A stretch of DNA of 64,000 nt from Coprinus comatus. Taxonomy: Eukaryota > Basidiomycota > Agaricomycetes > Agaricales > Agaricaceae. Of the stretch, positions 18,154-37,666 are shown in pieces; positions within the stretch are counted from its first letter, which is position 1, and each line of letters starts with the position of its first letter. The notes beneath the pieces were generated by a model, which saw only the letters and a program-made list of their open reading frames with translations, was not told the origin of the DNA and did no database searches. Both the position numbers and the translations under genes were made by a program. The DNA lies in NCBI GenBank assembly GCA_034638255.1, contig JAWPGT010000006.1, positions 372,001 through 436,000 on the forward strand, read 5' to 3'.

Positions 18154-20768
18154 ATGCCATCTCATGTGGGATTGTTAGGTTCTTCCTCCAGTGCTTTGAC
18201 CGGTGATACGAACAGAAGTAATCCCCCAAGCAGCGTACTTAAAAATGCACACGATTTTGTTTTAAAGGACGCAGTATTTGTGTCAAATACTTACAGTAGT
18301 CAGAATAGTCTTGGTGAGATTTATTATTTATTATTTCAGACCATGATTATATTATCAACCCTTTCACTTTAGGATTTGACTCCCTGGCACGTCAGATCTT
18401 GGCTGGTGCCGAATTTGACTCTTCCCAGAGGGACCCTCCTCCTCGTTGCCATCCAGGCACCCGGACGACTATTCTCCATAAGGCGCTAAGATGGCTTCAT
18501 GATCCACAAAGGAGCAAACCCATATTGTGGCTCAGCGGAAGTGCCGGTGTCGGAAAATCTGCAATCATGCAGACGTTGGCCGAACATGAATCTGACCACG
18601 GTCACCTCGCTGCAAGTCTTTTTCTATCTAGGTCGAAACACATAAATGATCCCCTACAAGTATTCCCATCCCTTGCGTATCAGATTGCTGTTAAAAATAC
18701 AGCATATCGAGCATATATTGATACGCTGCTTCTCCGGGACCCACGAGTACTGGATAAATCGATGAGTGAACAGTTCAAGAGATTGATCATTGAACCCTTC
18801 GCTCGACAGAAGATACAGTTAGGATCGGGGACGTGGTTGATGATCATTGACGGTCTCGATGAATGTGGGGTCGAGTTTGGTTGGAACACGAGAACCGCGA
18901 CTTCGACGCTGGGCGGATGCAATGTGAAATCATTCAGCTTATCCACTACTTCACAATCAATTGCCCTTTTGTACCCTTGGTGTGGGCCATCGCTAGCCGA
19001 CCAGAAGCTAATCTGAAGACTATATTCTCACGTGGAAACATTAGTACGGGCCACTGGAGAGAAGAGGTTCCTGTCGATACCACCGAGGCCTGCGAAGATG
19101 TGGAACGCTACCTACGAGCTCGCTTTCTGGCTATCCGTCACGATTATCCAGATCACATCCCACAACATTCACTTTGGCCTTCTGAACAGCATCTACTTGC
19201 ACTGGGGAAGGCTGCCTCTGGTCTCTTTGCTTTTGCTTCTACAGCAATACAGTTTATTGAAGACCCTCATGTTGCAAGTCCTGTTCAACAACTCGAATAC
19301 ATAGTGGAGTTTATTGATGGAAGGCAAACCTCTGATGGAAACAATCCACTCAGTATGCTCGATGCGCTGTATACACGCATACTTCAAAGTGTTCCTCAGT
19401 CAATCATTGCGGTTACCCTGTCGTTGCTTGCTTTCTCTCTAGTCAACAACTATACAGTTAACCGCTTGTCATTCCGAGTATTATCAAATATCTTGGGTCT
19501 AGGACAAGACATGGTATACAGTGCTCTCCGGAAGCTACATGCTGTCCTTGACATTCCAACTCCCTCCGATGCATTAATTAATGTTCCTGAACCATTGGGA
19601 GGAAAGAGAATCTCCAAAGGTCAAATTCGCGCCCGACATGCTTCCTTCACAGACTATCTTCAAGATGGTAATCGATCTGGCCAATATTGTGCTGAAAAGT
19701 TTGAAGTAGAGGGTCTATGGAATCGTTGCTTCCACATCTTACAATTGGTGAATGATAATGGTGAAACAAATATTATTTATTTTTATTAAAAGGTTCTAAA
19801 TTTCCCTATTCTAACAGCTGGTTGTGATCCACAGACTTCAATTATTCCTCTTAGCTGGCCATGCGAGAAAGAGCGAGCAGATAAACTACTTCAAAGGGAA
19901 ATTCATTTACAATGTGGATTCCTATGCAGGGTGCTTAGAAAGGAAATATCCATAAGGCAACAAGTTGAAGCTGTTGAGCGAATGGATTTTAGTAAGTTGG
20001 CTTATGGGTATTTCTCGGGGGAGCTGGATGTGTGTCATTTTGTATTAGCATCTGATAACTGGACAGAATTCCAAATTGTGGGTCCTAAAACACTTTTTTA
20101 TTCACTCGGTCCTGACAATTTCGTACTTAGAATCAGTCTTTTGAGCAAGCAAGGATAACTAGGAAGATAACGTTGGCTGAATTGAAACTTGAACGAATTA
20201 GGAGAGATAGGATTGCATACTCTCACTTTATACCGGAAAAAATTGTTTGGTCAATAATTGAACAATACTACCGTGATGATTTCGTGAGTCACCGTAGCCC
20301 CAGTCTCTTTGGGAATACATAAACGCTGATGACATACAGAAGGTGACGTCTAATGAAGACCGGGGCCCGGTATGTAACTTATATTGGAGGTATACACCGG
20401 CGTATTTAACAACAATCTTTATGTAGCATTACGAGAAACATTTCAAACCGCTCGATAAGCTCGTCGAGCGCCTGCGCCTTCGACAAACAGAATATCCACA
20501 TGCGCAAGTAGAACTTATCGGAAACGAACCATATAAGAGTTGTGCTGTGCTTGTCCTTGATCGTGGTAGCCCCAACCGATTCCCAGGTCGTAGTGAATAT
20601 ATGTCGATTGAGTATTATATTCTTCCTTATTCCTCTGTATAACATGCTTTGTTTATTTTCAAGTGGATTTCAATAAATCAACCACTTCGTGATTCTTGTT
20701 CAACGTAACGGTGTAATCGATCAACGAGGGAGTCAGATTTTATGTAGGCCTTGGGGTGACTTGTACTG
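18154..20768 (+). CDS. NACHT-domain NTPase with an internal frame break (possible pseudogene)
   Basis: STAND/NLR-like NTPase of the type expanded in Agaricomycetes. The ATG at 18154 (MPSHVGLLGSSSS) is followed by KNAHDFVLKDAVFVSN. An intron at about 18315-18371 leads into GFDSLARQILAGAEFDSS. Walker A is LSGSAGVGKSAIMQ and Walker B is WLMIIDGLDEC. Shortly after Walker B the open frame changes: QCEIIQLIHYF and VWAIASRPEANLKTIF continue in another frame from about 18863 to 19789. A 75-nt intron could bridge the frames but would delete the QCEIIQ segment expected in the family, so a frameshift is more likely. Further exons run to about 20643, or to 20768 with two more short introns (FKPLDKLVERLRLRQ, YMSIEYYILPYSS). 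No WD40 or ankyrin repeats are visible. Function as a sensor in allorecognition or immunity is only inferred. Confidence 0.62.
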
Positions 20769-21670
20769 AAATTGAGATAAGTATGGAGTTGACCGCTGTT
20801 GACACTGTCTCAAAACCCCCTGAGAGGCCTCAATCAGAAGCGCCAGAACATAAAAAATCGGTTCGATCATGGACACTCATACCCAATGAACGTGAACTTC
20901 GCGGAAAATCACCAGACCAACAGGCTAAACAATCGGAGGAAAAAAGAGTCAAACAAATGGGAGCTGGACAACAAGAAAATGAGAAAAGGAAAGTCTACGA
21001 TGTAGAAGGATAATCGGGAGTGACAGAAAGGATTGCAGTAGCTAAAGAAGCAATGACGGAAGAAGAAATTAAAAGGTAGAGTGATGAACTTGGAATTTTG
21101 GTTCTTAATGGGGTAAATCGAGGGTGAATTTTACAATTGAGGAGACGGGACTGAAACTGGAACAGCAACTACTGCAGTGGTTGAGGCCTCAGATAGAAAA
21201 CTTTATTCTCCCAACTTGAATAAATCAACTCACTGCATCATTGATCTGGTGGCACAGAGCCTAGTTCTATATTGGTATCCATATACACCTACGTGATTAC
21301 ACACAGCCTACATAGACCAAACCTATGATGGAAAAGTGAGTGCGTAATATCCACACAAGGTGCTCAGGATGCATAGATTGATCATGAAGAATAGATAAAT
21401 TATTCACAATTTCATGTCTTTTTTTATAATCATTTTCATGTCTCAGAACTTGAAGCCCATATAACCATCGGCGCACTGTCGTTCAATTAGATACAGGCTG
21501 TACAGCACAATTTCTGCGCTTGTAATTCTTGGTCATGACAGCACCCACCCAACAGAAATATATTCGTCGGATCCAACCGATTCAGATAACAATCATAACA
21601 TGCTTCTTCAGTCTTTTTTGGGAAGATGAAAAGAGGCGCTTGGAGCTTACTACTTGTCACTCTCACTCTG
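20769..21670. other. Segment X1, duplicated element upstream of HNH-MIF4G copy A
   Basis: A short open frame, 20783-21013 (+), encodes a charged peptide with APEHKKSVRSW, IPNERELRGKSPDQQAKQ and EEKRVKQ. The same arrangement (EHKK, W, NERE, SP, QAKQEE) is encoded on the minus strand at about 34830-34990 upstream of copy C. DNA similarity continues on the X1 side to about 21190, including GGAACTGG-type and GGAACAGCAACT stretches. Whether X1 is a gene, a relic exon set or untranslated DNA cannot be settled. The rest of the region holds the promoter of copy A. Confidence 0.45.
21567..21580 (-). promoter_or_regulatory. Shared near-palindromic element upstream of HNH-MIF4G copy A
   Basis: TCGGATCCAACCGA lies 90 bp before the chosen ATG of copy A. 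Its reverse complement TCGGTTGGATCCGA matches elements upstream of copies B and C and one at 35192. The TCGG...CCGA arms form an inverted repeat, which would suit a dimeric regulator. A role in transcription is inferred from position and conservation only. Confidence 0.5.
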
Positions 21671-23428
21671 ATGCCACTTTTTCCAGTTTCCGGTGGCTTC
21701 ACCTTGCCAGTAGTAGAACATGACATCTTAAGTCCATCCGACGAGTCAAATATCAAGACCACAGAAAGAAATATTCGTTGTGTAGTCTGCAGCACCGCAA
21801 TCGCGGTTCAGAAGTGTCATATAATACAACCATGGGACACACATACTGTGCGTCTTCTTATTCTTAAGAATGTGTCATGTATTCACGCCGTGATCGCTAT
21901 TGGTCTTATAGTGGAATACTTTGAAAGCAAAGAAATGCATTCCTCCTGGCTCCGGATTGATTGATCAAGAAGTTGGGAATACCATCTCTATGTGCCCTAC
22001 ACACACCACTTCATTCGAGAGATACTATTTCTTTATACAATACATCCCTGGAGTATGTACGATATCCTATAAATTTTCTCTCCATATTATTTACCACTCT
22101 TTAGCTTCGACAATACTTGTTTGTTAACCATAGTGGTGTTGACGACCCAATGCTTACACCGTTTCATGGAAAATCGATCAAACTGGACGTGAAAGATCAT
22201 GTACCGTTCCAATCACTTCTTCTCATCCATGAACAACGAGTACGCGGTTTCTGGTCTTTTGCTCAGCCAGAAACCGACATTTATGTGCACATAAACCAGG
22301 AACTTGAAGTTCAAGCTCGCTGTAACTCGGTCGCGATGCTGCTTAGGCGACTGACATCTGGGTCATTTAATGAAGTCTCTAATAAAATCATCGAAATAAT
22401 TAACAGGGATGTCAATCCTAAAACTCCCCCAACTTCGACGTCTACGGTGTTTCCATCCACCTTCATCTCTTCTCAATCGACATCACGAAGGCCTAAAGTT
22501 ACGCTAAAAAATCCCGATGGTGTGGAACTCAAGTTGGGGGACCTCATCAAGCCGAGGCAAGATGCATTCTCCAAAGAAAACATGTCAATCAATAAACTAT
22601 CACTGGAAGAAGAAAAAGGAAAACGACAGAAAATGGAAGAGAAAGAGACATCCAAAGAAAGGAACTCCAAATTGAAGAAGTTGGAAGGGGCTAACGATGG
22701 GGAACTTCCTCTTAAAGCTCTGAGGCATATTATCGATCTCATCTATTCTTATGCCATAGCTGCCGACGATGCTGAAAAGACGACATCAATCGCTTCTCTC
22801 TTACGCAAGATCGTGGAACAAACTAGTACCAAGATCCAGGACGACAGTTTGAAAGATTTTGACGGCAAACCCATTGTCGGGGGTCAACTAGCTCGCAAAC
22901 ACCTTCTCAACAGATGTCAGGAGGACTTTAAGAGAGGCTGGGCTGTCAATGAATTCATTAGTACTGAGGAGAATGAAGTTTCAAGACGACAGTATCTCGG
23001 TCTCCTCAGGTTAATGGCTGAATTTTACAAACTGCAGATGTTGACCGAACGGGTTATACACGAGTCCATAAAATTCCTCTTGTCAAAATCCGTGACTGAA
23101 GAATTATACCTTGAGGGTGTATGTACGCTTCTCCTAGTCGCTGGTAGAGAGTTGCAGAACCCCAAGGCACATGCGCACATGGATGTATACTTTAGTCGCA
23201 TGAGGGAGTGGACTGATGCACCAAACATCTCTTCCCGTACCCGATCAATGGTTCAGGTTTGCGCTATCTTGTAGTGATCTGATGCAAGTAGCTAGACTGA
23301 CTTGTACGTACTAGGATGCCATCGCCTTGCGTCACGCTGGCTGGGATACAGACCGAGTTAAGTTGGCTCAGGAAGACGTGTTGGATTTCATCTACACTGA
23401 AGGTTGGCAAGTATATAACAGGATTTGA
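21671..23428 (+). CDS. HNH-nuclease-like / eIF4G-MIF4G fusion protein, copy A
   Basis: Four exons (21671-21847, 21912-22052, 22105-23256, 23315-23428) give 527 residues. Residues about 36-160 resemble fungal HNH endonuclease domains: RCVVC, CHIIQPW with His50, GNTISMC with Asn82, THTTSFE with His90, then GVDDPMLTPFHGKSIKL and IHEQRVRGFW. From about 180 the protein is a MIF4G domain like eIF4G: FNEVSNKIIEI, GQLARKHLLNRCQEDF, LRLMAEFYKLQMLTERVIHE, AHMDVYFSRM and, after the last intron, DAIALRHAGW. A charged insert of about 100 residues (207-306, with LEEEKGKRQKMEEKETSKE) interrupts the MIF4G domain. MIF4G in eIF4G binds eIF4A and RNA; a nuclease tethered there is inference. The ATG was chosen because the leader ending ...CACTCTC and exon 1 match copies B and C. 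Confidence 0.85.
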
Positions 23429-25406
23429 TTAGAGTAGATATGTACCGTACATACTATTCTGTCAGATTTTGATGGAGGTTATCAAGTTTTATTTCTGGGT
23501 TCAAAGGACCCAGTCACTGAACCATTCATGATTCTAGCCATGATTGTCCTAAGTATAATAAATCAGTGCTTTGCACTCAACAGCGACTAATTCTACGTCA
23601 TACACTGATGCACAATAACACATTGACCGATAAATCAAAATAGTGGAATGCATTAATGCTTGGAACACATTGTTGTATCAATGACTTCACAATAAGCCTG
23701 CTCCTGTACACAGCCGGGCTTTAAAACAACAAAAGCCATGAGTTACTTTGGTCTCTGACTCGGATCTTGATTGGATTGTAGCGACGTATGTAAGTGTATC
23801 CGTACACATGCTTTCTTACGAACTCAAGTAACCTTATTGTATTGTAAGGCTATTGTACTCCACGTTTAGCATGACATCAATTTAAGCGCTTTAAACGTCA
23901 TACAACAGCTTTCAACGCTTCATCTGCGTGTAGTTAACAACAGGTTCACAATGCTACATTGATGTTACGAACTATGAATCTTGTATTTCGCGGGGCCTGT
24001 AAGAACACTCCGATACTCAATCGGTATTTACTATCACATAATCTGTAAAAAAAATTGAGGTGACGACTCAAATGATGTGCGTATGAGGTCCGAGAATCGA
24101 CATACATACATAATATCTACAACCAGGTCTGCAAAATCACAATCACCATGTTGATCTTTTTTTTTCCAAACATACATAGTGACTATGCTAAATAAGGTGA
24201 AACTGGGGCTGTGCCTTTAGACGGAGGCGAGGTATGCACTACTTAAACTCTAAGTTTAGAGTTGTTGATGGTACTAAACATTATCTGAGGATGAGATGAT
24301 GTCGTCGAATAGGGAGTTGTTGGATTGATGGGTTATCATGACGCAGGGTATGAATTTGGAAGTTGTACATAAAATGAACGAAGGCAGAGAAGTAGAGAAT
24401 ACCAGGAGAATATATAAATAGAACAAGTAGCAAGACAGAGGGATCATACAACGATCGATCAAACTAAGCCATGGCATGGATGATCAGCTATGATCAGAGC
24501 TTCGAAACCGCTTCCGAACTCAAGGTTTCTAAGGGAGTTTGTTGATAAGATGTCATCTAATTGTGTCGTGTTTAGGATGTCAAAACGAGTTTGAGCGCTG
24601 AACGCTTGAACGCTTTCCATAAGGAGTCTAGTTCAAAAATAAATGCCTGACTCTCTCAGCCTCAAATCTTAGAATCAACATGATTAGCTGTGCTTATTTA
24701 GTACACAAGAGCGGAGAATGCTTAGCGCGACCAACTGCGACCAGAGTGCGATGCGAGGGTTGATTGTAGCAACCACGTGGCGTCATTAATGGTTATTTTT
24801 GTTTTTGATGGTGTGGTTTTGCAAGGAGGTCGCCTCGAGGCAAAGTTGAACCGTCTCTGGTATCATGATCCCATGCTTTCTTCACTCCTACTCTCATCAT
24901 GTACTAGTCAAAGACCATTTCTCTGCCTCTGATGAACATTTTTTATTACAATTTTTCTTCCTCTCAAACCATCCTATAACGGCCACCATGTGATGCACAT
25001 TTATGAGATATATTTAGTGCCGATCTGCGGGCACGGCTCTCTTTGGAGCCCGTCGTACGAATGGTCCAAGCACGGTCCAAGCGTCAAGTCAAAGCTAATA
25101 TGGGGACATGGCGGTGCTAGTGAAAACTAAAGGGAGCGTCAAAAGGTGGAATGTGAGTTAAACTTTTCGGCGGGCGTTCTAAGCTCATTCATTCTGTCTA
25201 GATTATGATTATTATAAATTTTTATATCATGTGGGATCTGACCTAACTATGACATTCTTGCTGTTGCTATTTTCTGAGAGGTCTGCTAAGCAGAGTGGGG
25301 GCTGTTTGGTTTGAAGGAGGTGATTGTTGGTATGGACAGTTACCCCATTTGGCTTTCCAGGGTTCCTTATAATCTAGGCTGACTCCTTCTCCCATATCCA
25401 CCAATC
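23429..25406. other. About 2 kb intergenic, no gene recognised
   Basis: AT-rich stretch with scattered short frames only; an example is 24274-24477 (-), which is hydrophobic but without family features. A plausible promoter for the DUF6699 gene lies in the last few hundred bases. No mobile-element motif was seen. Confidence 0.5.
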
Positions 25407-26189
25407 ATGCAGAGACGCATACGCTTTGCAACGACCAACACCCTCTACTCCCCACCAAACTCGCCCTCGCCGTCTCTTTCTCACAGTTCACTGCACTCAG
25501 ACGACTCGTCAGCACCAGAGCTCACAACTCCTCCACCAGAAATCGACTACTCTCCTCATTACCCACAATCGCCATACCCACATTCTACAGACTTTATCCT
25601 TCATCCCCAGCACCAGATCATCCAGCAACAACACCAGAGCCAGAACCACAACCAGCACTATGAAGCTCTCGATGTTGTTGCCAAGAATCCTCCCAGCCCC
25701 GAACAGCCAATGCAAATTCATTACCTCCTGGCGTACAACCCCCTCGCAGAGCTCCCTATCCATTTCGACTTGTCGCTCCATTGGTCTCAAATTTTAGAGC
25801 AAGTCCAACCGCATGAGCTCGGCGAGCCAGCGACAAACCCTCCACTCTCCTCCATCATCATCATCACCCCACTCATTCCCTGGCAGTTCCTTATCACAGC
25901 CTCCACGCAAAGTGGTCATATCACCGTCCAAGACTTGCTCACGACACTCTTCCGGGAACTTCGTCTCGCTGTTCGTAGAGATGAGTACAACGCTACCGAC
26001 GTGGTAACCAGGTCAGCCGTTGACGCAGCTTATCATGCGAGATATTCCCGGGTCCAAGATTCTCAGACCAGGGAAAATGAACGGTGCAAAGGGGTTAAAA
26101 AAGTAGACTTCCTACAAGGAAGAAACCTCTTCAAGGGTCTTTCGGGCACTATGGCAGGTCCTGGAGTTTGGGAGCTCAATGTCGCATGA
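25407..26189 (+). CDS. DUF6699 domain protein
   Basis: Single-exon gene of 260 residues with a C-terminal DUF6699-like domain, a basidiomycete-rich domain of unknown function. Residues 1-100 are low-complexity, rich in Ser, Pro, His and Gln (PSPSLSHSSLHSDDSSAPEL, QQQHQSQNHNQHY). The domain follows: HYLLAYNPLAELPIHFDLSL, then IITPLIPWQFLITAST, GHITVQDLLTTLFRELRLAV, the Arg-rich AYHARYSRVQ, and DFLQGRNLFKGLSGTMAGPG. These match the beta-strand, W/P and helix pattern of the family as I know it. No catalytic residues are known. No intron is needed and nothing is broken. Confidence 0.82.
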   Translation: MQRRIRFATTNTLYSPPNSPSPSLSHSSLHSDDSSAPELTTPPPEIDYSPHYPQSPYPHSTDFILHPQHQIIQQQHQSQNHNQHYEALDVVAKNPPSPEQPMQIHYLLAYNPLAELPIHFDLSLHWSQILEQVQPHELGEPATNPPLSSIIIITPLIPWQFLITASTQSGHITVQDLLTTLFRELRLAVRRDEYNATDVVTRSAVDAAYHARYSRVQDSQTRENERCKGVKKVDFLQGRNLFKGLSGTMAGPGVWELNVA

Positions 26190-27232
26190 GGAACCCCCAC
26201 TTTCCATATTTACATCCCTCTCTCCCTGTCCTCTCTCTGTCCTTCCACCTCCACCACTCCTTCGGGTACGGGATATATGCTATTCTGGCTGTGCGGTCTG
26301 TCAAGAAAACTCCTGAGAACTACGCTCATAGTAGACCGCATATAGTTTCGTTTTCTTGGACGACGAATATCGCGGTAGCAGTATTCATACCCCATCCATT
26401 TCACTCTCCGTTCCATTCTCTCCGAAAGTTACTGGAAAAAATAATCAAAACTCAGAAGAAAAAAGTATTTATTGGGTTTTCTCATGGGTAATGGGTTGGA
26501 AAATCGAAGCCGGAAGGATAACCTTCGCTTCATGAGCGGCGTGGCGTTGTCAACTGTTGCAACATGTGACTATTGTACGGTGCGCTGCATTAGATTTATA
26601 ACACGGGTCATATGGTTGTGCGCCCCTCACTTTCCGGAAGCCTCTTTGCGGTGTTCCTGGAAAGACCAGTGAGAGTGACAATCCCTACTTTGGGATTCAC
26701 TTTCACTACAAAGTATTTTTTACTAGACACTTTATTTTACCTTCTATCCCTTCCTCATCTTCATCCTCTACTATCGTTATTCTTCGTCTTATCGTTTTCT
26801 TTTGCTTATTTGGTTTTGCTGTCGTAGTTTATTGTGTTATTTGTTCAACTCCCTTTCTGACCAGGTCATGCTTTACATGAGCCTTGGCTGTTATTAAATA
26901 TGTAGTACAACATCTGTATGTAGTCGTACGCCGTTTGTAAACCCCCTCCTTCCTGTACTCGGGAAATTAGTGTACTTGGTTTATCCCGAACAATCAAAGA
27001 AAAGAAAAGAATCAAAATCCATTAATCAATTCTAAAAATGCCCATTGCCCAGACGCTCACAACGCTACCTAACCCTACGCCCTGGTATTACTTTTATCAC
27101 AAGTACAGCAAAATGACGTCACTCTCTCTTCAGCCAGTAAGACAAAGTACTTTTGTATTGGATTCGTATTGGATCCTTCCGGTATAAAATTCGTTTTCAG
27201 GGTAGTGCAAGACTAATACTAGTGTATCCTTT
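26190..27232. other. Intergenic between DUF6699 gene and F-box gene 3' end
   Basis: Contains pyrimidine-rich tracts and short frames without recognisable domains (26168-26491, 26472-26672). Two genes converge here, so it holds their 3' untranslated regions. Confidence 0.5.
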
Positions 27233-30200
27233 TCAAAGGAGATCAAGAAGATCGAACAGCAAGCTATCATATTTCCCCAGTCCAGATGAAAACTTGTTTT
27301 CGTTAAAGTCGATCACTGTATAACAGAAATAATCCTCATCGCCAACTCGATAAATTTTATGTCTAAGAAATTTATTAGCAAGGTTCTGGAATCTGAAATG
27401 TTAATATGATTCATGCACACTTACTTTGACGAGAGATGTGATCGTAACCCATTAAACGTAAACTTATTTTCAGGTTTTTTCTCTTTCTCTTTTTTCCCTT
27501 TCTCTTTCCCCTCCTCTTTTTCTTTCCCTTTCCCCTCCTCTTTCTCTTTTTTCATGGTTGTACAGGCACCTTCCGTTATGATCTCTTCGTCTACACACAT
27601 CGCTGAATCGTCTTGCATTACGGATATCACCTGCATTGTCGAACTTCCAACTACACCTTCCTCTTCTTTTCCCTCTCGTTCTTTTGCCGCTTCTTTTTCT
27701 CGTTCCTTGATGTGATGACAATATATACACCCAAACACCAATTGCTCTTCCCAAGTCCTCTTCTTAATATCATCATGTATAAATCGTGTAGTCCCACGTT
27801 TATTTAAAGCTGGTCTCCAACTATTCGCTTGAATTTTAGTTACTTTTTCCAGTTTCATTGGAACAGGATGACGATGCGAATGACCAATCTATCATATAAA
27901 TAATATAAAAAAAAAAAGTTATACGATGCAAGTTTTCTGTCAATGAACTTACAATGCTGGAGTGATGTAATCCTATAGGTGGATCACAGGACATACATTT
28001 CCAATAGCTTCTGTTATATTCAGGGGTGTATTCGTCTGGATTTTCTGACGATACACCTAATATCTTCAAAGCTTGCAGGATAGCAGCAGAAGCCTGTTCA
28101 AGATTTCCTGAAATGAGCAACGATTTGGGTGTAGAGAAAAACCAAATATATGCAGTATAGATATATTAACTCACCTGTTCATCTAAAACAAAATTATTAG
28201 CATTCCAGATTCCTCCCTTCCCTTTCTTATTCAACTTTCCCTTCACCATCAAACATTCATGTTTACAAACGCCTCTAAAATCCATGCACTCATCCATCTG
28301 ATACCTTCTTTCCAAATGATCACAATTTTTACACTTCCATCTTGCTTCAGGACGTAAAACAGGATGAATCATGGTTTCACATGGTACCATTCTAGCCCAT
28401 TCATCTCCAACATCAGGTAACGTCTTCGATAACTCTAGTTTCGCTTTTTCAACCCAATCATCGATTTGCTTTTAAGAAGAGGGCGAAGGAAGGAACTTGA
28501 TTTGAATGCAACTTGCGCATCAACTTTGGGATTGAAGTCGGGTGATTCTACTATTTTGATAGCGGGTAATGTTCGGAATGTTGAGAATGGTGGGATGAAA
28601 GGATAATCGTCTTTCGTATTTGATTCGATTATTTTATAGAACTTCCAAATCCGTTTTGGATTGTCTTGTATGGTTTTAGCTTTTGCGGCTTTTTCTCGTT
28701 TCTCGTTCAAGATGAAGAGTTCTCGAGCAAGTTGTGGTCGTATTTTTATAAAATCTGTGAAAATGATGTCCTTGTTTAGAAAACCCAATATAACAAAGAA
28801 AAATATGAGTAAAAAAAAGGTAGTTGACCTTTGAGCGAGATAACTTTGCCAAGTTTTCTGGTATTGAACTCCAGAAGTTTGGCAAAGGTCGTATTTGCTT
28901 TCAAGTCGGACCATTCCCAATGTTCACGAAATGCGAAGTTCCTTCCCCTATACTGCGTGTCAAAAACGTATTAAAAATATGAATATTTCTTGAAACCCTT
29001 ACTCCTCTTCGTTTTGATTTCGAAGAGACCTCATCTTTTCATCCCTTTTCCTTTTCCAGACCTCGAGAGCAGCACAAAACTTCACAGAAGATGTAAGTTG
29101 AAAGTGTACGAATTATAGGTTAAGGTCAAACGATGTACCTCATTCCAAATATTATAATATGCAGTTTTTTTGGCCAACGCCAACCTCTGTCTTACATTAG
29201 CTTCCCTTGCTGAATATCACTATCTCAGTCACCGTTTGATAAATGAAGGCAATGAAATGTACATACACGCAGGGAGATTGATACGAACACGCCGAGGGGC
29301 TGTGTCCCAACTTAGGTCTAGTTGTCCTTCAACGGTACTGGTACTAGTAGATGCCCCATGAGCAAGTCTTACTGGATGCAATAGATACAACAAACTCGAT
29401 ATCTTGAACACATGCAGCCTGAAAACACAAAATAAATCAAGATTGAACTAAATTTCAAGTACACAACCTACATCACCACAGTATCGGATCCTCAGCGCAA
29501 ACGAGTGGTACATCCTATCAGTTCGTTTGTCACATGTCTGTACCTCAAATGAGTCTATTTTCCAGAGATAAATATGTTAAAGGTCTGAACCTTACCTTGC
29601 ATACTCCGCCATCGAAAATAAAAGCCGCGTAAGCAGCTTCACTACCAATGAAAGGGCGTACACCGTTAATCGTTATTTCCTTCCCAGTTTCCGGGTCATT
29701 ATATGTTGATTTATATCCCTCTGGTTTGGGTAGGTTAAGATCATTTCGCAACTGTCTCCAGATATAACTAGCGTCGGGGCTAAGAAGTTGTGCGCACAAT
29801 GTCTTACAACTTCTTGCCACAGCAAGGAGATCGTCAGGATCCGAAGTTTGCGTAAGAATCTCGCCTAGAATTTCCAAAGGGAGATGAACCAATGGTGTTG
29901 TTTGTAATACATCGTTTATGGTGTCCTGATCATCTATATTGGTAGACGAGGATGGAAGTTGAGACTGTTCGGGTTCAACTCGTAGTCGTTTAGAGTTGTG
30001 TTCCTCCATCGATTCCTGATCAAGTGATTGATCAGTCTCCATAGTGGAAGAATTATCAAGTTTACGCTTCAAATTTGATGAAGAGGCAGTTGAGCTGGGA
30101 CTAGAAGAACGAATTCGTGTTCTCTTTGAAGTAGTTTCTCGTTCATCAGTCCCAGTTGTGTAGCTGTCTCGACGTCTTTTGGCGCCTGAATGGTTCGAAT

Positions 30201-30264
30201 CCGCTTCGAGAAATACCTTTTGTAATACTTGCTCCCCTTCAGCAGCTTTCGAGGGTATAGACAT
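27233..30264 (-). CDS. Many-exon F-box protein with Cys-rich C-terminal part
   Basis: It starts MSIPSKAAEGEQVLQKVF at 30264 and has a Ser/Arg-rich, probably nuclear, N-terminal region with KRRRDS and SKRTRIRSSSPSS. The F-box is PLVHLPLEILGEILTQTSD plus LLAVARSCKTLCAQLL and YIWRQLR. The following exons have the layout of a common basidiomycete family: AAYAAFIFDGGVCK, RTDRMYHSFALRIRYC, FREHWEWSDLKA, RPQLARELFILNEKR, then Cys pairs in WKCKNCDHLERRY, YWKCMSCDPP and VFGCIYCHH, and a C2H2-like NGLRSHLSSK. A Lys/Glu-rich tract (KEKEEGKGKEKEEGKEKG) precedes the end, which after a last intron reads FQNLANKFLRHKIYRV and stops at 27233. I count at least ten introns, some only about 46 nt. Likely an SCF ubiquitin-ligase adaptor; exon edges between 28900 and 29600 are approximate. 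Confidence 0.7.
27475..27552. repeat. Polypyrimidine (CT-rich) low-complexity tract inside coding sequence
   Basis: The tract is almost pure C and T on the plus strand, with a near-duplicate block of about 30 nt (CCTTTCTCTTTCCCCTCCTC and CCTTTCCCCTCCTCTTTCTC). On the coding (minus) strand it encodes the Lys/Glu/Gly-rich segment of the F-box protein. Confidence 0.8.
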
Positions 30265-30582
30265 TAGTGTGTTGGATTGCTGAAAGATTCAGCTTTGCTG
30301 GCGGTGACAGGAGGGTTGCAAAAGATCCTCCCCCCAGTTCTTCTCCTGATGTTGATGACCACGTGAATTGAGCGCTTAACTAGCTCTTAGAGTCACTTGA
30401 TAGGCATTTTTCGAATATATACTGTGTTTCGGTTTTAACTTTTAGTTCCCTATTGATACATTGATATTATGATATTAATTATGTGCAATAGAGTGTGTGT
30501 GTGACGCTCAATGTACAGCATGTACTGTACATGCTTTAGACAAGTCTATTAAAATACTTCTACAATGGTCAATAATAATAAT

Positions 30583-32083
30583 TTAATTCGAAGCATACCC
30601 TGCATAATTTTTAGAAGAGGTAGACTTTGGCGCACAATATGTATCTCACCGGCAGAGTAAGACATCCCAGAATCTTTCTTATACACAACCCATCCCGCCT
30701 TACGCAAATTAATGATATCCTAACATCTCGAATCAGCATAAATCATCATCCAGAAAAATCCAAACAAACCTGAAGCATTTTCTGTATATGAGGAGCGACG
30801 TTAGGGCTTGTACTACACTTCTTCATATGCGCAAAGTACATATCCATATACATTTGAGCCTTAGGAGTATCCAACTCTCTACCAACGATCATTAACAACG
30901 TACAGACATCTTCAATGTAGTTTTCTACGTTGGTGTTGCCTAAGAGAACCTGTAAACTCTTATGTACACTACGTTCAGTTAATATCTGTAACTTGAACAA
31001 TTCGCCCATCAACCTGATGAGAGCGAGACCTCGTTGCTTCGCAGCCTCGTACTCCTCAGTACTATTAGTTTCATTTACATCCCAGCCTCTTTCCAAGTCC
31101 TCTTGACATCTGTTGAGAAGATATTTGCGGAACAATAGACCTCCGGTAATGGGTTTGCCGTCCAGATACGAGACACCATCCTGAATATCATTCCCAATTT
31201 CCTTCGTGATTGTGTAACAAAGACGAGCGAATAATTCCGATTGAGTAGCATCACTGATCATCGCCTGTTCATAGACAACGGCAATAATACATTTCAGTGT
31301 TCTTGCATCCTTCTCTCTGGAAAACCCATTAATCATTTGTATGATATTGTCCGAGATTGCATCAAATGTGTAAAACGTCAGTTGTCGAAGTAGATTTGTT
31401 GCTCCAAGACGAACAAGTTCCGGTGAATTGGTACAAGTCTGAACTATGAGCGTAGGAATATCCAGCAGCTCATGAGCAAAAGGCCAGAAACCGCGCACTC
31501 GTTGTTCATGGATGAGAAAAAGCGCTGGGAAAGGTGTATGAGGGTCTTCCACATCCAAGAGGATAGACTTTCCATGAAAAGGTGTAAGCATCGGATCGTC
31601 AACACCACTATAGTTAATAAATACATATTGCCGAAGCTAAAGATTGTAGTGAGTAATATGGCAAGAGACAGAATAAACGGGACGTACTTCGGGGAGGTAT
31701 CGTATAAAGAAGTAACATCTTTCGAATGAGGTGACATGTGCAGAACACATGGAGATGGTATTCCTAACTTCTTCTTCAATCGATTTAGCTTCATAAGGAA
31801 TGTAGTTCCTGTCTTTCAAATTGTCCCACTACAAAATAAATAAAAACATGAATGTAGATGTTACATACCCAATAATACGAAGACGTACAGTATGAGTGTC
31901 CCATGTTTGAATTATATGACAATTTTGAACAGCGAATGTGGTACCGCAAACCGTACAACGAGCAGTGGTCTTAACAGTTAATTCATTAGATTGACGAAAA
32001 ATGGCACGTTTTACTGGTAAGTTGAAGCCATCAGGTGGACCATAGGCAGGAAGAGGCAGCGAGATTGTTGGCAAAGATGACAT
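30583..32083 (-). CDS. HNH-nuclease-like / eIF4G-MIF4G fusion protein, copy B (compact form)
   Basis: Exons 32083-31889, 31828-31688, 31636-30770, 30719-30650 and probably 30599-30583 give about 429 residues. The HNH-like part has ARCTVCGTT, CHIIQTW with His56, VRNTISMC with Asn88, SAHVTSFE with His96, then YVFINYSGVDDPML and LFLIHEQRVRGFWPFA. It runs straight into an uninterrupted MIF4G domain: FYTFDAISDNIIQMINGFS, REKDARTLKCIIAVVYEQA, DGKPITGGLLFRKYLL, NRCQEDLERGWDVNE, LALIRLMGELFKLQILTERS, ELDTPKAQMYMDMYFAHM, MLQDIINLRKAGW. This copy is the closest to canonical eIF4G and lacks the charged insert of copies A and C. If the last intron is not used the frame ends at 30549 instead. All three HNH positions are intact. 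Confidence 0.86.
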
Positions 32084-32765
32084 GAGAGTGATAGGTAAGC
32101 CTCGAGCACATGTTTATCGGCTGGATCCGATGCAGGGACGAGAACCACCATATCAGTTAAGTACATTTGTGAGGAACGTCACACTACTTATGTATAGCTA
32201 TCTATAGCTATGCACTGTGCCAGTGACTTGGTAATCCACACATATTATCAAGTACTAGCGAGTATTTATTCAAGCTTTACTTTACTCGTGAGTGCGGGTC
32301 TCAGAGTAAAGTTTAGGTATGTCCTCGATAATCCAGTTAGATTATCGAGTCACCCACTCAGTGTATGAAAATATTATAAGTAGTAAGAGCCTGAAGGTTT
32401 TCGGGAGCACTAGAATGCTGACCAGATGCTAAAATTAATGGAATAACAGTCAGCACTCGTGAATTTGAGGTACGTTTGAAGAAAAAGAATTTACCATTGC
32501 CAGCGACAGTACTATCCAGCTTCATTCACCCACATTCAGATGGTGATCTCGACACACACACGAATATTTTACATTATTAGTATAGTCAGAAAGCAACTCC
32601 GCTTTGGGGGAAAATTCGGGATCGGAGTTTTCTAGTAAGAAGTACGACAGAGAGCAGTGAAGTTCAAACATTCAAATTCAAAAGCATATACAGCATACTC
32701 ATATATTCTTTAATCAAATCTCGTAGATACTCCTACAAGTATAAGGGACACTAACTTAATTAGTG
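32084..32765. other. Intergenic between tandem copies B and C
   Basis: It holds the copy B promoter (element at 32117-32130) and the 3' region of copy C. Near 32300 and 32340 the sequence has short imperfect repeats (TTATCGAG, CGATAATC). No gene was seen. Confidence 0.5.
32117..32130 (+). promoter_or_regulatory. Shared near-palindromic element upstream of copy B
   Basis: TCGGCTGGATCCGA lies 34 bp upstream of the copy B ATG (gene on the minus strand). It matches the elements at 34514 and 35192 and, in reverse complement, at 21567. The leader after it, read on the gene strand, includes GCTTACCTATCACTCTC directly before the ATG, similar to copies A and C. Confidence 0.55.
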
Positions 32766-34456
32766 TCATGAGGGTTGTGTTGGAATCCAACCCATGTTAC
32801 GCAAAGCAATGACATCCTAGTGGGTACAATCCAAGTCAGTATACAGACTTGTATAAGATCACCATAAGATTAAGCAAACCTGAAGCATTGATTGGATACG
32901 AGGAGAGATGTTTGGTGTATCAATGTACTCCTTCATACGTGTGAAGTACACATCTATGTGTGCGCGTGCTTTGGGTGTATCCAACCCTCCACCAACAACC
33001 ATGAAAATCATACATGCACCTTCAAGGTAACATTCTTCAGTCATGGGCCTTAATACTAAGAGAAATTTTATGGACTCGTGCATAATCCGTTCGGTCAACG
33101 TCTGCAGTTTGTACAATTCAGCCATTAACCTGAGGAGACCGAGATACCGTTGTCTTGCAACCTCGTTCTCTTCAGTACTAATGGATTCATTGGCAGACCA
33201 GCCTTCCATAAAGTCCTCCTGACATCTGTTGAGAAGGTGTATACGAACTAGTTGACCTCCGCCAATGGGTTTCCGTTTGCCGTCAGAACCTTTGAAACCG
33301 TCGTCCTGAATCTTGGCACTAGTTTGTTCCATGACCTTTCGCAAGAGAGAAGCGATTAATATCATCTTCTTAGCATCGTTGACTACAGCGTGAGAATAGA
33401 TGAGGTCGATAATACGTCCCAGGGCTTTAGGAGGAAGTTCCTTTTCAAACTTCTTCAGTCTCCAACTCTTTGTCTCGTGCGTCTCTTTCTCTTTCTCTTC
33501 CGTTTTCTGCAGTTGTTTTTCTTCTTCTTCTTCTTCTTCTCCTAGCGGTTGTTCATTTCTTTTTAAGTCGTTTACCGAGTCAAACGGAGCTGGCTCCAAT
33601 TTAACATCCACGTCATGAGCCCTTGTTAATGTAGCTTCGGGTTGTTGTTGAGGGGGGGTGGGGGTAGATGAAGGACTTTTGGATGATTGTAAAGCTGAGG
33701 GAGTCTTGGGACTCAAAACGTCCTTATTAATTATTTCGATGATTTTACCACAGACTTCATCAAAATTATCCGATATCATTTGTTGAAGCAACCTTGCGAC
33801 AGTGTCACAACGAGCTTGAATTTCAAGTTCTTGGATCACAAACATAGGAATATCTGATTGCTGAACAAGAGGCCAGAAACCGAATACTCGTTGCTCGTGA
33901 ATGAGAAAAAGTGTTGCGAAAGGTATATGAGGGTCTTTCACATCCAAGGTGATTGACTTTCGATCAAAACGTGTGAGCATTGGATCGTCAACGCCACTAT
34001 AGTTGATAAACACGTATTGTTGAAGCTGAAATATGGTGAATAATATGCAGAAACTTATGGGATATTGTACTACGTACTCTAGGGATGTATCGTATAAAGA
34101 AATAGTACCTCTCGAATAAAGTGGTGTGTGTAGAACACATAGAGATGGTGTTTCTAACTTCTTGATCAACTGATTGGGCGTCAGAAGGAATATATTTCTT
34201 GGTTTTCAAGGTATTCCACTATGTTAATAAAATCAATGAATGCAGATGTTACATTTCCAAGAAGACGCACAGTATGAGAGTCCCATGCTTGTATTATACG
34301 ACATTTCTGAACAGCGATTGTGGTACTGCAAACTGCGCAACGAACAGTTTTGTCCGTGGTCATGAGAGTTGACTCGTTGGATGAACTGAAGGTGCCATGT
34401 TCTTCTAGTGACAAGTTAAAACAACTGGGTGGTGAGATGTTTGACAAGGGAGGCAT
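32766..34456 (-). CDS. HNH-like / eIF4G-MIF4G fusion protein, copy C (HNH histidine lost)
   Basis: Exons 34456-34271, 34218-34078, 34025-32880 and 32816-32766 give 507 residues, with the same intron positions as copies A and B. The HNH-like part reads VRCAVCSTT, then CRIIQAW. Arg53 stands where A and B have His (CGT for CAT), while NTISMC (Asn85) and STHTTLFE (His93) are kept. Then come YVFINYSGVDDPML and LFLIHEQRVFGFW. The MIF4G domain has FDEVCGKIIEIINKDV, HLLNRCQEDFMEGW, LLRLMAELYKLQTLTERIM, LDTPKARAHIDVYFTRM, and the last exon DVIALRNMGWIPTQPS. A charged insert of about 100 residues, with a Glu run (EEEEEEKQLQKTEEKEKE), splits the MIF4G domain as in copy A. Nuclease activity is doubtful; eIF4A or RNA binding could persist. 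Confidence 0.85.
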
Positions 34457-34527: not shown

Positions 34528-35191
34528 TGGGTTTAATTCTGTTGGGTAGTTGGTATTTACTGGTCGTGAGAGTTAGAAGAAGCGAAACCAGAAGTTTATT
34601 TTTAGCGGTCAATATTATCTCAAACCACCAGTTGCTGTTCCAGTTCCACTCTCCCGTCTCCTTAATTGTCAGATTCATCGCTTCAATAACCATAATTATA
34701 AGTCCATCACTCTCCATTTTTACATTTTTCCTCCAACGATTTACCCTGGTCTTTTTTTTCTTTCTTCACTTACACGTAGTTCTTAATTATCCTTTTACTT
34801 GCCCTTTTCTTTTTCTTGTTGTTTAACACACTTCCTCCTGTTTAGCTTGTGGTTCCGGTGACTCCATCTGAATCTCACGTTCATTACGTGACCACGGTCT
34901 TGGAGGCCATTTTTTATGCTCCAGTGCTTTTGATTTAGGCTCCGTTGTATTTTCCGGGGTTTCGTACCACTATCCGAACTTTTTAATGTGGTAGTATTAG
35001 TTATTAATTGCTTGATGTGCCCATGTAAAATATCACGTTTGGATGGAGTATCGATATCAGACGTGTTTTGTCATCACTGGTAGATGAACATAAAGCGGCA
35101 TGCTCTGTCCACTCGAAGCCTTCAGGATCGTTATCAGAGTGAATGGCGACAATAGAGCCGTAGTAAACGCGACGTGGAAGAAGCATGTTTG

Positions 35192-35205: not shown

Positions 35206-35884
35206 TGCGGTTTATTTCTCTTGTGAGGTTTGAAAGGAAGTTGGTACAGTTGCTACGACCAGAGTTGCGAAAAATTAAAAATGATCGATCCACTTGGCTG
35301 ATAGTGTTTTATAGATAACTCGGACTTCGGGATATACCGACTCGTTGGCCGTAGAAGTTTGTTCTTAGCGGTCAATCAATGCATCTATGTGGTCCAAGGT
35401 CTGCTGAAGATTGGTTGAGCGTATTCTTATCATAGGGGTTGAGATGGGCGCGACAAACAACATCATGACGGCCATTGAACGGCTAGTCTTTATTTATAGA
35501 TCCCTGGAGTACATTTGAGTATGTCGATGCCTACCTACCTAGGCTTATGGCTGTAGCCGTGGTAGTGAGCGAGGGTTGAGGAAAGGGTTAATAGGACGTT
35601 AAATAATTTGCAAAGGTACGTCAAGGGGGAGGATGGAAGATGGGTGTACATAACGGGAACTGAGCGTGCGAATATTTCTGGCAGGGCTTTGCAGGTCTTT
35701 TCGAACACCACGCATCTTGTTTCCTGCCAACACAAAGTACAATCATCCATCCACACAACTTCTCTCAGCAACACCAACCCAGAAACTTGTCCATTTATCA
35801 TCACAATTCACCCAGCCCTTACAAACCATCAGCCTCCAACCAAACACGTTTTTACCCGCTTTACCCCATCCACCCCATCCAACA

Positions 35885-37666
35885 ATGTCCCAAGCTACCA
35901 CATCTTCATCGTCAACGTGAGTCTTTATCTGTCTTTTCATATCACAACAAATCCGTACGACCGCCTTCCCCTTTCCCCTTTTTCCAGACCCAGCAATCAC
36001 GCCAATACCACCATCCCCATCTCGAATAATAATGATAACTCCTGGAAAGCTTCCCTTCGTCCTCCACCAAAAGACCTCCGCCCCCAAACCGAGGATGTTA
36101 CAGCAACCAAAGGCATAGAATTTGAGGACATGGACATCAGACGCGAACTCCTCATGGGCATTTTCGAAGCAGGATTTGAAAGGCCTTCACCCATCCAAGA
36201 AGAAGCCATACCCATCGCTCTAACCAAACGTGACGTTCTAGCCAGAGCGAAGAACGGCACTGGCAAAACAGCCGCATTCGTTATCCCCTCCCTCCAACAG
36301 ATTGATATCAACCGACCAAAGATTCAAGCCTTACTCCTCGTACCCACAAGAGAACTCGCTTTACAGACCTCTCAAGTCTGCAAGAACCTCGGAAAGCATA
36401 TGGGAGTACAGGTCATGGTCACCACTGGAGGAACGACACTTAAGGATGATATTTTACGTCTTTCTGAGACTGTACATGTTTTAGTCGGTACTCCTGGAAG
36501 AATTTTGGATCTTGCAGGAAAGGGTGTCGCTGATTTCAGCGAATGTCCTGTATTTGTTATGGACGAGGCCGATAAGCTGCTTTCACCGGAATTTGCTCCA
36601 GTGATGGAGCAGCTACTGTCTTTCTTACCCGATAATCGCCAGGTCATGTTGTTCAGCGCTACATTCCCAATGATAGTCAAGGACTTCAAGGTAAGTTAAT
36701 CTTTAAATATCTCTCTGACTTTTACTGATGGGTGAACAGGACAAACACATGCACGAGCCCTATGAGATTAATCTTATGGATGAGCTTACCCTTCGTGGTG
36801 TAACTCAATACTATGCCTATGTCGAAGAGCGACAAAAGGTTCACTGCCTCAACACACTTTTCTCAAAGGTCTGCCGTTTGCCAAGCAAATCACGGACTGA
36901 TACTGATGAACAAGTTTAAATTTAACAGCTCCAAATCAATCAGTCTATTATTTTCTGCAACTCGACCAATCGAGTTGAGCTGTTGGCCAAGAAGGTCACC
37001 GAGCTCGGATATTCCTGCTTCTACTCGCATGCTAAAATGCTTCAATCCCACCGTAACCGTGTTTTCCATGATTTCCGTAATGGCGTCTGTCGTAACTTGG
37101 TCTGCTCTGATCTCCTCACCCGTGGTATCGATATTCAAGCTGTCAACGTGGTCATCAACTTTGATTTCCCAAAGAACAGCGAAACTTATTTGCATCGTAT
37201 TGGTCGTTCTGGCCGTTTTGGACATTTGGGGCTGGCAATTAATCTGGTGACCTATGAGGATAGATTCAATCTGTATAAGATTGAACAAGAGCTTGGGACA
37301 GAGATTCAACCGATTCCCCAAACTATTGATCGTGGTTTGTACGTTGCACCGAATGCGACGGAGGATCAACACCAAAAGCCTCAACCACAACAAGCACAGC
37401 AATCGCAACAGAGACAAGCTGCGGCTATTGCCCAAGCCCAGACCCAGCTCCCACTTCCAGGTCAACCTCAAGTTCAACGCGTTGCCCCACCGCACATCCC
37501 CCAACAATATCAACAACAACCCCAGATTCCTATGCCACAACAACAGCAACATATCTATAATGGACAACCACAACCGCAGAGGCAGAATGGAGGTGTACCA
37601 CCCCAGCAACAGCAACAGATTCGTGGCCAGCCTACGTACCGCGGTGGTGTACCCGTTGCGAGATGA
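35885..37666 (+). CDS. DHH1: DEAD-box RNA helicase Dhh1 (DDX6 family)
   Basis: Cytoplasmic RNA helicase of P-bodies that promotes decapping and translational repression. The ATG at 35885 gives [11 protein letters not shown]. Introns near 35918-35989, 36691-36738 and 36869-36928 keep frame. Helicase motifs in order: [20 protein letters not shown] with the Q motif [23 protein letters not shown] (I), PTRELALQ (Ia), [19 protein letters not shown] (Ib), [10 protein letters not shown] (II), LFSATFP (III), [11 protein letters not shown] (IV), [13 protein letters not shown] (V), [12 protein letters not shown] (VI). [10 protein letters not shown] and the short spacing after it are typical of Dhh1/DDX6. 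The tail is rich in Gln and Pro with CAA/CAG repeats, as in other fungal Dhh1 proteins. The neighbours are unrelated. Confidence 0.96.
37370..37625 (+). repeat. CAA/CAG-rich segment encoding the Gln/Pro-rich Dhh1 tail
   Basis: An irregular CAA/CAG-rich stretch encodes runs such as [15 protein letters not shown] and MPQQQQ. It is low-complexity coding DNA and a likely site of length variation. Confidence 0.7.

Follow-up and report, generated by a model that had tools for sequence, protein, structure and literature searches.

Three paralogous fusions of an HNH_2-family module with an eIF4G-derived MIF4G domain in Coprinus comatus

What does a protein do when a nuclease-like HNH module is joined to the middle domain of the translation initiation factor eIF4G, and does it still cut nucleic acid or hold eIF4A? 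This question is raised by a 64,000-nucleotide stretch (the window) of the Coprinus comatus genome (assembly GCA_034638255.1, contig JAWPGT010000006.1, forward-strand positions 372,001 to 436,000), which contained three paralogous genes of this kind, designated copies A, B, and C. An earlier note on this DNA had proposed the fusion and expected a nuclease acting on translating mRNA or an eIF4G decoy. The account considered probable here, as read from the sequence, is that an HNH_2 gene was fused with a copy of the eIF4G MIF4G part and then triplicated, and that the products would be non-enzymatic binding proteins.

The junction of the two parts lay within one exon. In every copy, exon 3 was a single open frame that held the block QYVFINYSG...LIHEQRVRGFWPF (the copy B wording of the block ending the HNH-family module), followed by MIF4G, with no stop codon or intron between them; this shared frame bore out the claim that an HNH-fold module was fused to an eIF4G-derived MIF4G domain in three paralogues. 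The spliced proteins matched the MIF4G profile with E-values of 2.2e-28 (A), 3e-27 (B), and 9.4e-28 (C), while the HNH_2 profile scored 23.1 bits in copy B, above the curated cut-off of 21, and did not reach it in copy A (19.9 bits) or copy C (16.1 bits). Copies A and C aligned with a family whose scanned members matched PF13391 in 33 of 35 cases, and this homology supports the HNH assignment of the two copies. At E up to 10, only MIF4G and HNH_2 matched A, B, and C in Pfam, with no MA3 or W2; the eIF4E-binding motif (YxxxxL-hydrophobic) was not found in A, B, or C, and it was present in the genome's own eIF4G and in the eIF4G-like gene L001 (see below). The named organisms among the best protein matches were mostly Agaricomycetes, and no HNH-MIF4G architecture was found among the protein matches listed, within the length and word limits of the searches, or among the open-licence papers listed; the earlier note had likewise known of no such fusion, which is put together from known domains.

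The HNH module kept its zinc site and lost part of its active site. The zinc ligands C63, C66, C115, and H118 (CxxC plus CxxH; numbering of the Flammula alnicola homologue P0094) were kept in 3/3 copies, and in homologues with a letter at the position they were found in 29/29, 29/29, 32/32, and 31/32, respectively. The structural zinc of TagI is bound by CxxC plus CxxD, and its relatives have CxxC or CxxH (PMC6212794). The moniker residues of VcaM4I are H224, N241, and D250, D254 serves as another ligand, and activity was drastically impaired when H224, D250, or D254 was changed to alanine (PMC7897488); the same spacing of N, N+9, and N+13 was found in this HNH_2 family. All three copies kept the moniker N, and the metal-ligand position N+9 was T/V/T in A/B/C, neither H nor D, compared with H in 21/32 homologues. 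The base His was kept in A and B and replaced by R in C (H in 24 of the 30 homologues with a letter there). These substitutions indicate that the HNH module of A, B, and C probably does not cut nucleic acid.

The MIF4G part had likewise lost a contact residue. N615 of yeast eIF4G, equivalent to N86 of DAP5, contacts the C-terminal domain of eIF4A (PMC10746786), and the DAP5 change N86A abolished eIF4AI binding and left eIF3 binding unaffected (PMC4402527). At this position A/B/C had R/R/Q, compared with N in 52/53 homologues and also in L001 and the genome's own eIF4G. With the offset from structural alignment (model 66 to chain 597), N615 likewise falls on this residue of copy B, provided that there is no gap there. 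The LLNRCQED block was kept in the fusions, and conserved positions were retained at 65/116 in A, 72/116 in B, and 63/116 in C, compared with 78 of the 82 testable positions in the own eIF4G. Copies A, B, and C are probably poor eIF4A binders that would not engage eIF4A canonically.

The copies had the marks of selective constraint. Whole-gene synonymous divergence (dS) between copies by the NG86 method was 0.52-0.95, and at this divergence all three frames were intact and all splice sites were kept. The ratio of nonsynonymous to synonymous divergence (dN/dS) was (i) 0.26-0.29 by NG86 and 0.25-0.37 by YN00 for the HNH part, (ii) 0.37-0.58 by NG86 and 0.57-0.59 by YN00 (2 of 3 pairs computable) for the MIF4G part, and (iii) 0.24-1.06 by NG86 for the short N-terminus. 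In neutral simulations, which were substitution-only, were started from the present sequences, and used branch lengths roughly chosen by the authors, the frame stayed open in 0/2000 runs for each copy. Residues for both activities have been lost, yet the frame has stayed open in three diverged copies; this combination suggests a non-enzymatic role, and the candidate roles are probably those of a diverged scaffold, an adaptor, or an eIF4G mimic. Under this favored account of a non-enzymatic binding protein, the zinc-stabilized HNH fold may retain binding to nucleic acid or to a partner, displayed on an eIF4G-like HEAT scaffold, and this scaffold with its kept LLNRCQED could compete for, or pass as, eIF4G with partners other than eIF4A.

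As to origin, the simplest account starts from one HNH_2-family gene of this fungal lineage, which would have lost its own C-terminal tail. The MIF4G segment of eIF4G, copied at the DNA level, would have been attached to it within the present third exon, and the chimera would later have been duplicated to give three genes. Copies A, B, and C formed one clade in the MIF4G tree (support 100/100, stem 0.86) and in the HNH tree (support 100/99), with the same (A,C) pair in both. By our reading of the sequence, the genome's own eIF4G shares the intron after MLQ, and this favors a MIF4G copy made from genomic DNA over one made from mRNA. The C-terminal tail profile strongly matched 30 of the 32 homologues and weakly matched the other 2; among the window copies, its sole match was to C (0.0 bits, E 1.3), and a search of the rest of the genome for the conserved tail, run without a positive control, gave no match up to an E-value of 10. 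The upstream DNA of A (21071-21170) and C (34630-34720) could be aligned over 102 columns with a similarity of about 75%, so the duplication would also have taken in some of the upstream DNA. The dS between A and C fell to 0.14-0.19 over A residues 346-470 (A 22777-23151; C about 32985-33368), which suggests gene conversion.

Several observations weigh against a triplicated, non-enzymatic fusion as set out above. On the HNH side, N+13 was Glu in all three copies and could still bind metal, unusual metal ligands occur in HNH enzymes (PMC7897488), and both His were kept in only 19/32 and the full H-N-(H/D) in 14/32 stand-alone homologues, so that active-site decay is common among its relatives rather than peculiar to the fusion. 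On the MIF4G side, the Asp after MLQ, equated with human D982 by counting, was kept in 3/3 copies, and other eIF4A contacts, such as those in the eIF4G contact list of PMC7470955, could keep binding. The dN/dS values were based on just three divergent sequences, and the A-C windows in part of the MIF4G domain gave 0.70-1.02; in the MIF4G tree, the bootstrap was not settled, the long stem was a risk, and the deeper placement was unresolved. An active HNH nuclease guided by MIF4G to translating mRNA or ribosomes, the role via eIF4A that the earlier note had expected, is nevertheless improbable, since the N+9 His was gone in 3/3 copies, the base His was also missing in copy C, and the eIF4A-contact Asn was lost in all three. 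A wrong joining of separate HNH and MIF4G genes by exon prediction or misassembly would find room in exon structures predicted from sequence, and in an assembly whose own eIF4G gene carries an apparent deletion, but the unbroken junction exon recurred in three diverged copies (65-74% nucleotide identity) in two orientations, which makes such an artifact highly implausible.

A by-product of gene shuffling, namely a chimera without important function that is drifting to loss, would fit the apparent loss of both canonical activities, the A-C windows of raised dN/dS, and the sub-threshold HNH_2 scores of A and C; it was judged unlikely against three intact frames with all splice sites kept at such dS, the low dN/dS of the HNH part, and the absence of open frames in the neutral simulations. 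The other role that had been envisaged for this locus was an eIF4G decoy or bait. In the form considered here, MIF4G would act as a stand-in for eIF4G towards a mycovirus, competitor, or toxin, with the contact reported by the HNH part or by a NACHT neighbor. Three signs speak for it indirectly: the MIF4G part evolves fast but has kept LLNRCQED, another fast eIF4G-derived gene (L001) lies on the same contig, and a NACHT/NPHP3_N exon begins about 3.4 kilobases (kb) upstream of copy A. However, the NACHT-family pieces numbered 79 in the genome, of which random placement would put about 0.05 near the copies, no DNA repeat of the NACHT gene was present near B or C, and fast evolution also fits relaxed constraint; this role was judged unlikely. 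A tentative and rather unlikely variant is a translation-platform mimic, in which a dead HNH zinc module and a degenerate eIF4G core, diversified into three copies, would serve as a decoy or sensor for eIF4G-attacking factors (e.g., viral or competitor proteins) and would depend on neither eIF4A nor nuclease activity.

The sequence comparison was also applied to known systems. The stand-alone Agaricomycete HNH_2 (PF13391) proteins had about 285 amino acids (aa), for example P0094 from Flammula alnicola (BDZ97DRAFT_1831237), which showed 53% identity across 81% of the HNH region used in the search. Like the fusions, they had a similar N-terminal pattern, the CxxC...CxxH zinc site, and the QYVFINYS...LIHEQRVRGFWPF-type module, but 30/32 of them carried the tail ~ILAATR..SWKAC..EGTSW.GTAEEN..KY where the fusions had MIF4G, and 21/32 kept the metal His that was lost in 3/3 fusions. 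Compared to canonical eIF4G, the fusions had no eIF4E motif and no MA3 or W2 match, and the contact Asn was replaced; fungal eIF4G may itself lack W2. DAP5/eIF4G2 and Paip1 are eIF4G-like proteins with a MIF4G domain and are not known to carry an HNH module. DAP5/eIF4G2 has a MIF4G domain that binds eIF4A via N86 (PMC4402527), the residue replaced in the fusions. TagI, VcaM4I, and EcoKMcrA are prokaryotic modification-dependent HNH endonucleases with a working active site, unlike the fusions, and their partner domains are SRA, EVE, or NEco instead of MIF4G.

The three copies shared one gene structure of four exons. Copy A (plus strand) was composed of exon 1 (21671..21847; N-terminus, CxxC, and CHII), exon 2 (21912..22052; W-LK, IP, and NTISMCPTHTTSFE), exon 3 (22105..23256; end of the HNH-family module and, by Pfam, MIF4G with a charged insert), and exon 4 (23315..23428; DAIALRHAGW and the protein end). 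Its start was picked via the family alignment: a second in-frame ATG lay upstream at 21626, and 21671, the ATG of MPLFPVSGGF, appeared to fit the family start pattern better; the spliced protein had 542 aa from 21626 and 527 aa from 21671. Copy B (minus strand) was composed of exon 1 (31889..32083; N-terminus, CxxC, and CHII), exon 2 (31688..31828; NTISMCSAHVTSFE), exon 3 (30770..31636; end of the HNH-family module and MIF4G without the insert), and exon 4 (30549..30719; DIINLRKAGW and the end), giving 457 aa with an uncertain 3' frame end. Copy C (minus strand, start at 34456) was composed of exon 1 (34271..34456; N-terminus, CxxC, and CRII, in which the base His was replaced), exon 2 (34078..34218; NTISMCSTHTTLFE), exon 3 (32880..34025; end of the HNH-family module and, by Pfam, MIF4G with a charged insert), and exon 4 (32766..32816; DVIALRNMGWIPTQPS and the stop), giving 507 aa. 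The charged insert early in MIF4G had 103 residues in A and 99 in C, with 8 residues there in B. The elements CxxC, C(H/R)II, and NTISMC..H were all found in exons 1-2, the eIF4G blocks of the LLNRCQED, LMxExxKLQ, and (M/I)D-YF--M types in exon 3, and D-I-LR--GW in the last exon, as had been noticed before; the matching exon phases were borne out too, since 9/9 introns were phase 0 (GT..AG, 50-64 nucleotides). The joins across introns 1 and 2 were backed by homologues whose sequence continues across both.

Other eIF4G-related and neighboring genes were found in this genome of 35.7 megabases in 134 contigs. L003 (G000:C17:536624-539932), which carried the Pfam label MIF4G and which we take to be eIF4G from its sequence rather than from that label, was the one canonical eIF4G that the assembly yielded; at about 1450-1460, some 60 MIF4G codons were missing and the reading frame changed where the flanks meet, possibly an assembly error, an allele, or a real lesion. 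L001 (G000:C6:575402-579085) was a fast-evolving eIF4G-like gene on the same contig as the fusions, about 170 kb away, with the eIF4E motif YDLDFLMQF; its eIF4A-contact Asn was kept and its NRCQE block was changed, the reverse of the pattern in the HNH fusions. L006, L007, and L008 were also labeled MIF4G by Pfam and are, by our reading of their sequences rather than by the label, presumably UPF2, NOM1-like, and CWC22, respectively; the gene at 35569-37666, labeled DEAD, is in the same way taken to be DHH1. Upstream of copy A was the NACHT/NPHP3_N gene (exon 18318-19016, the gene probably extending to about 20.6 kb), and between A and B were an F-box-like match (23.4 bits, just below the cut-off of 24.3) and a DUF6699 gene (29548-30288 and 25383-26189).

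If expressed, these genes would provide a domain combination in which a nuclease-like fold is coupled with the scaffold at the center of translation initiation. Integrated decoys, a parallel to eIF4G mimics, have been described in plants, and the three fusions raise the question of whether such mimics serve fungi in defence or regulation.
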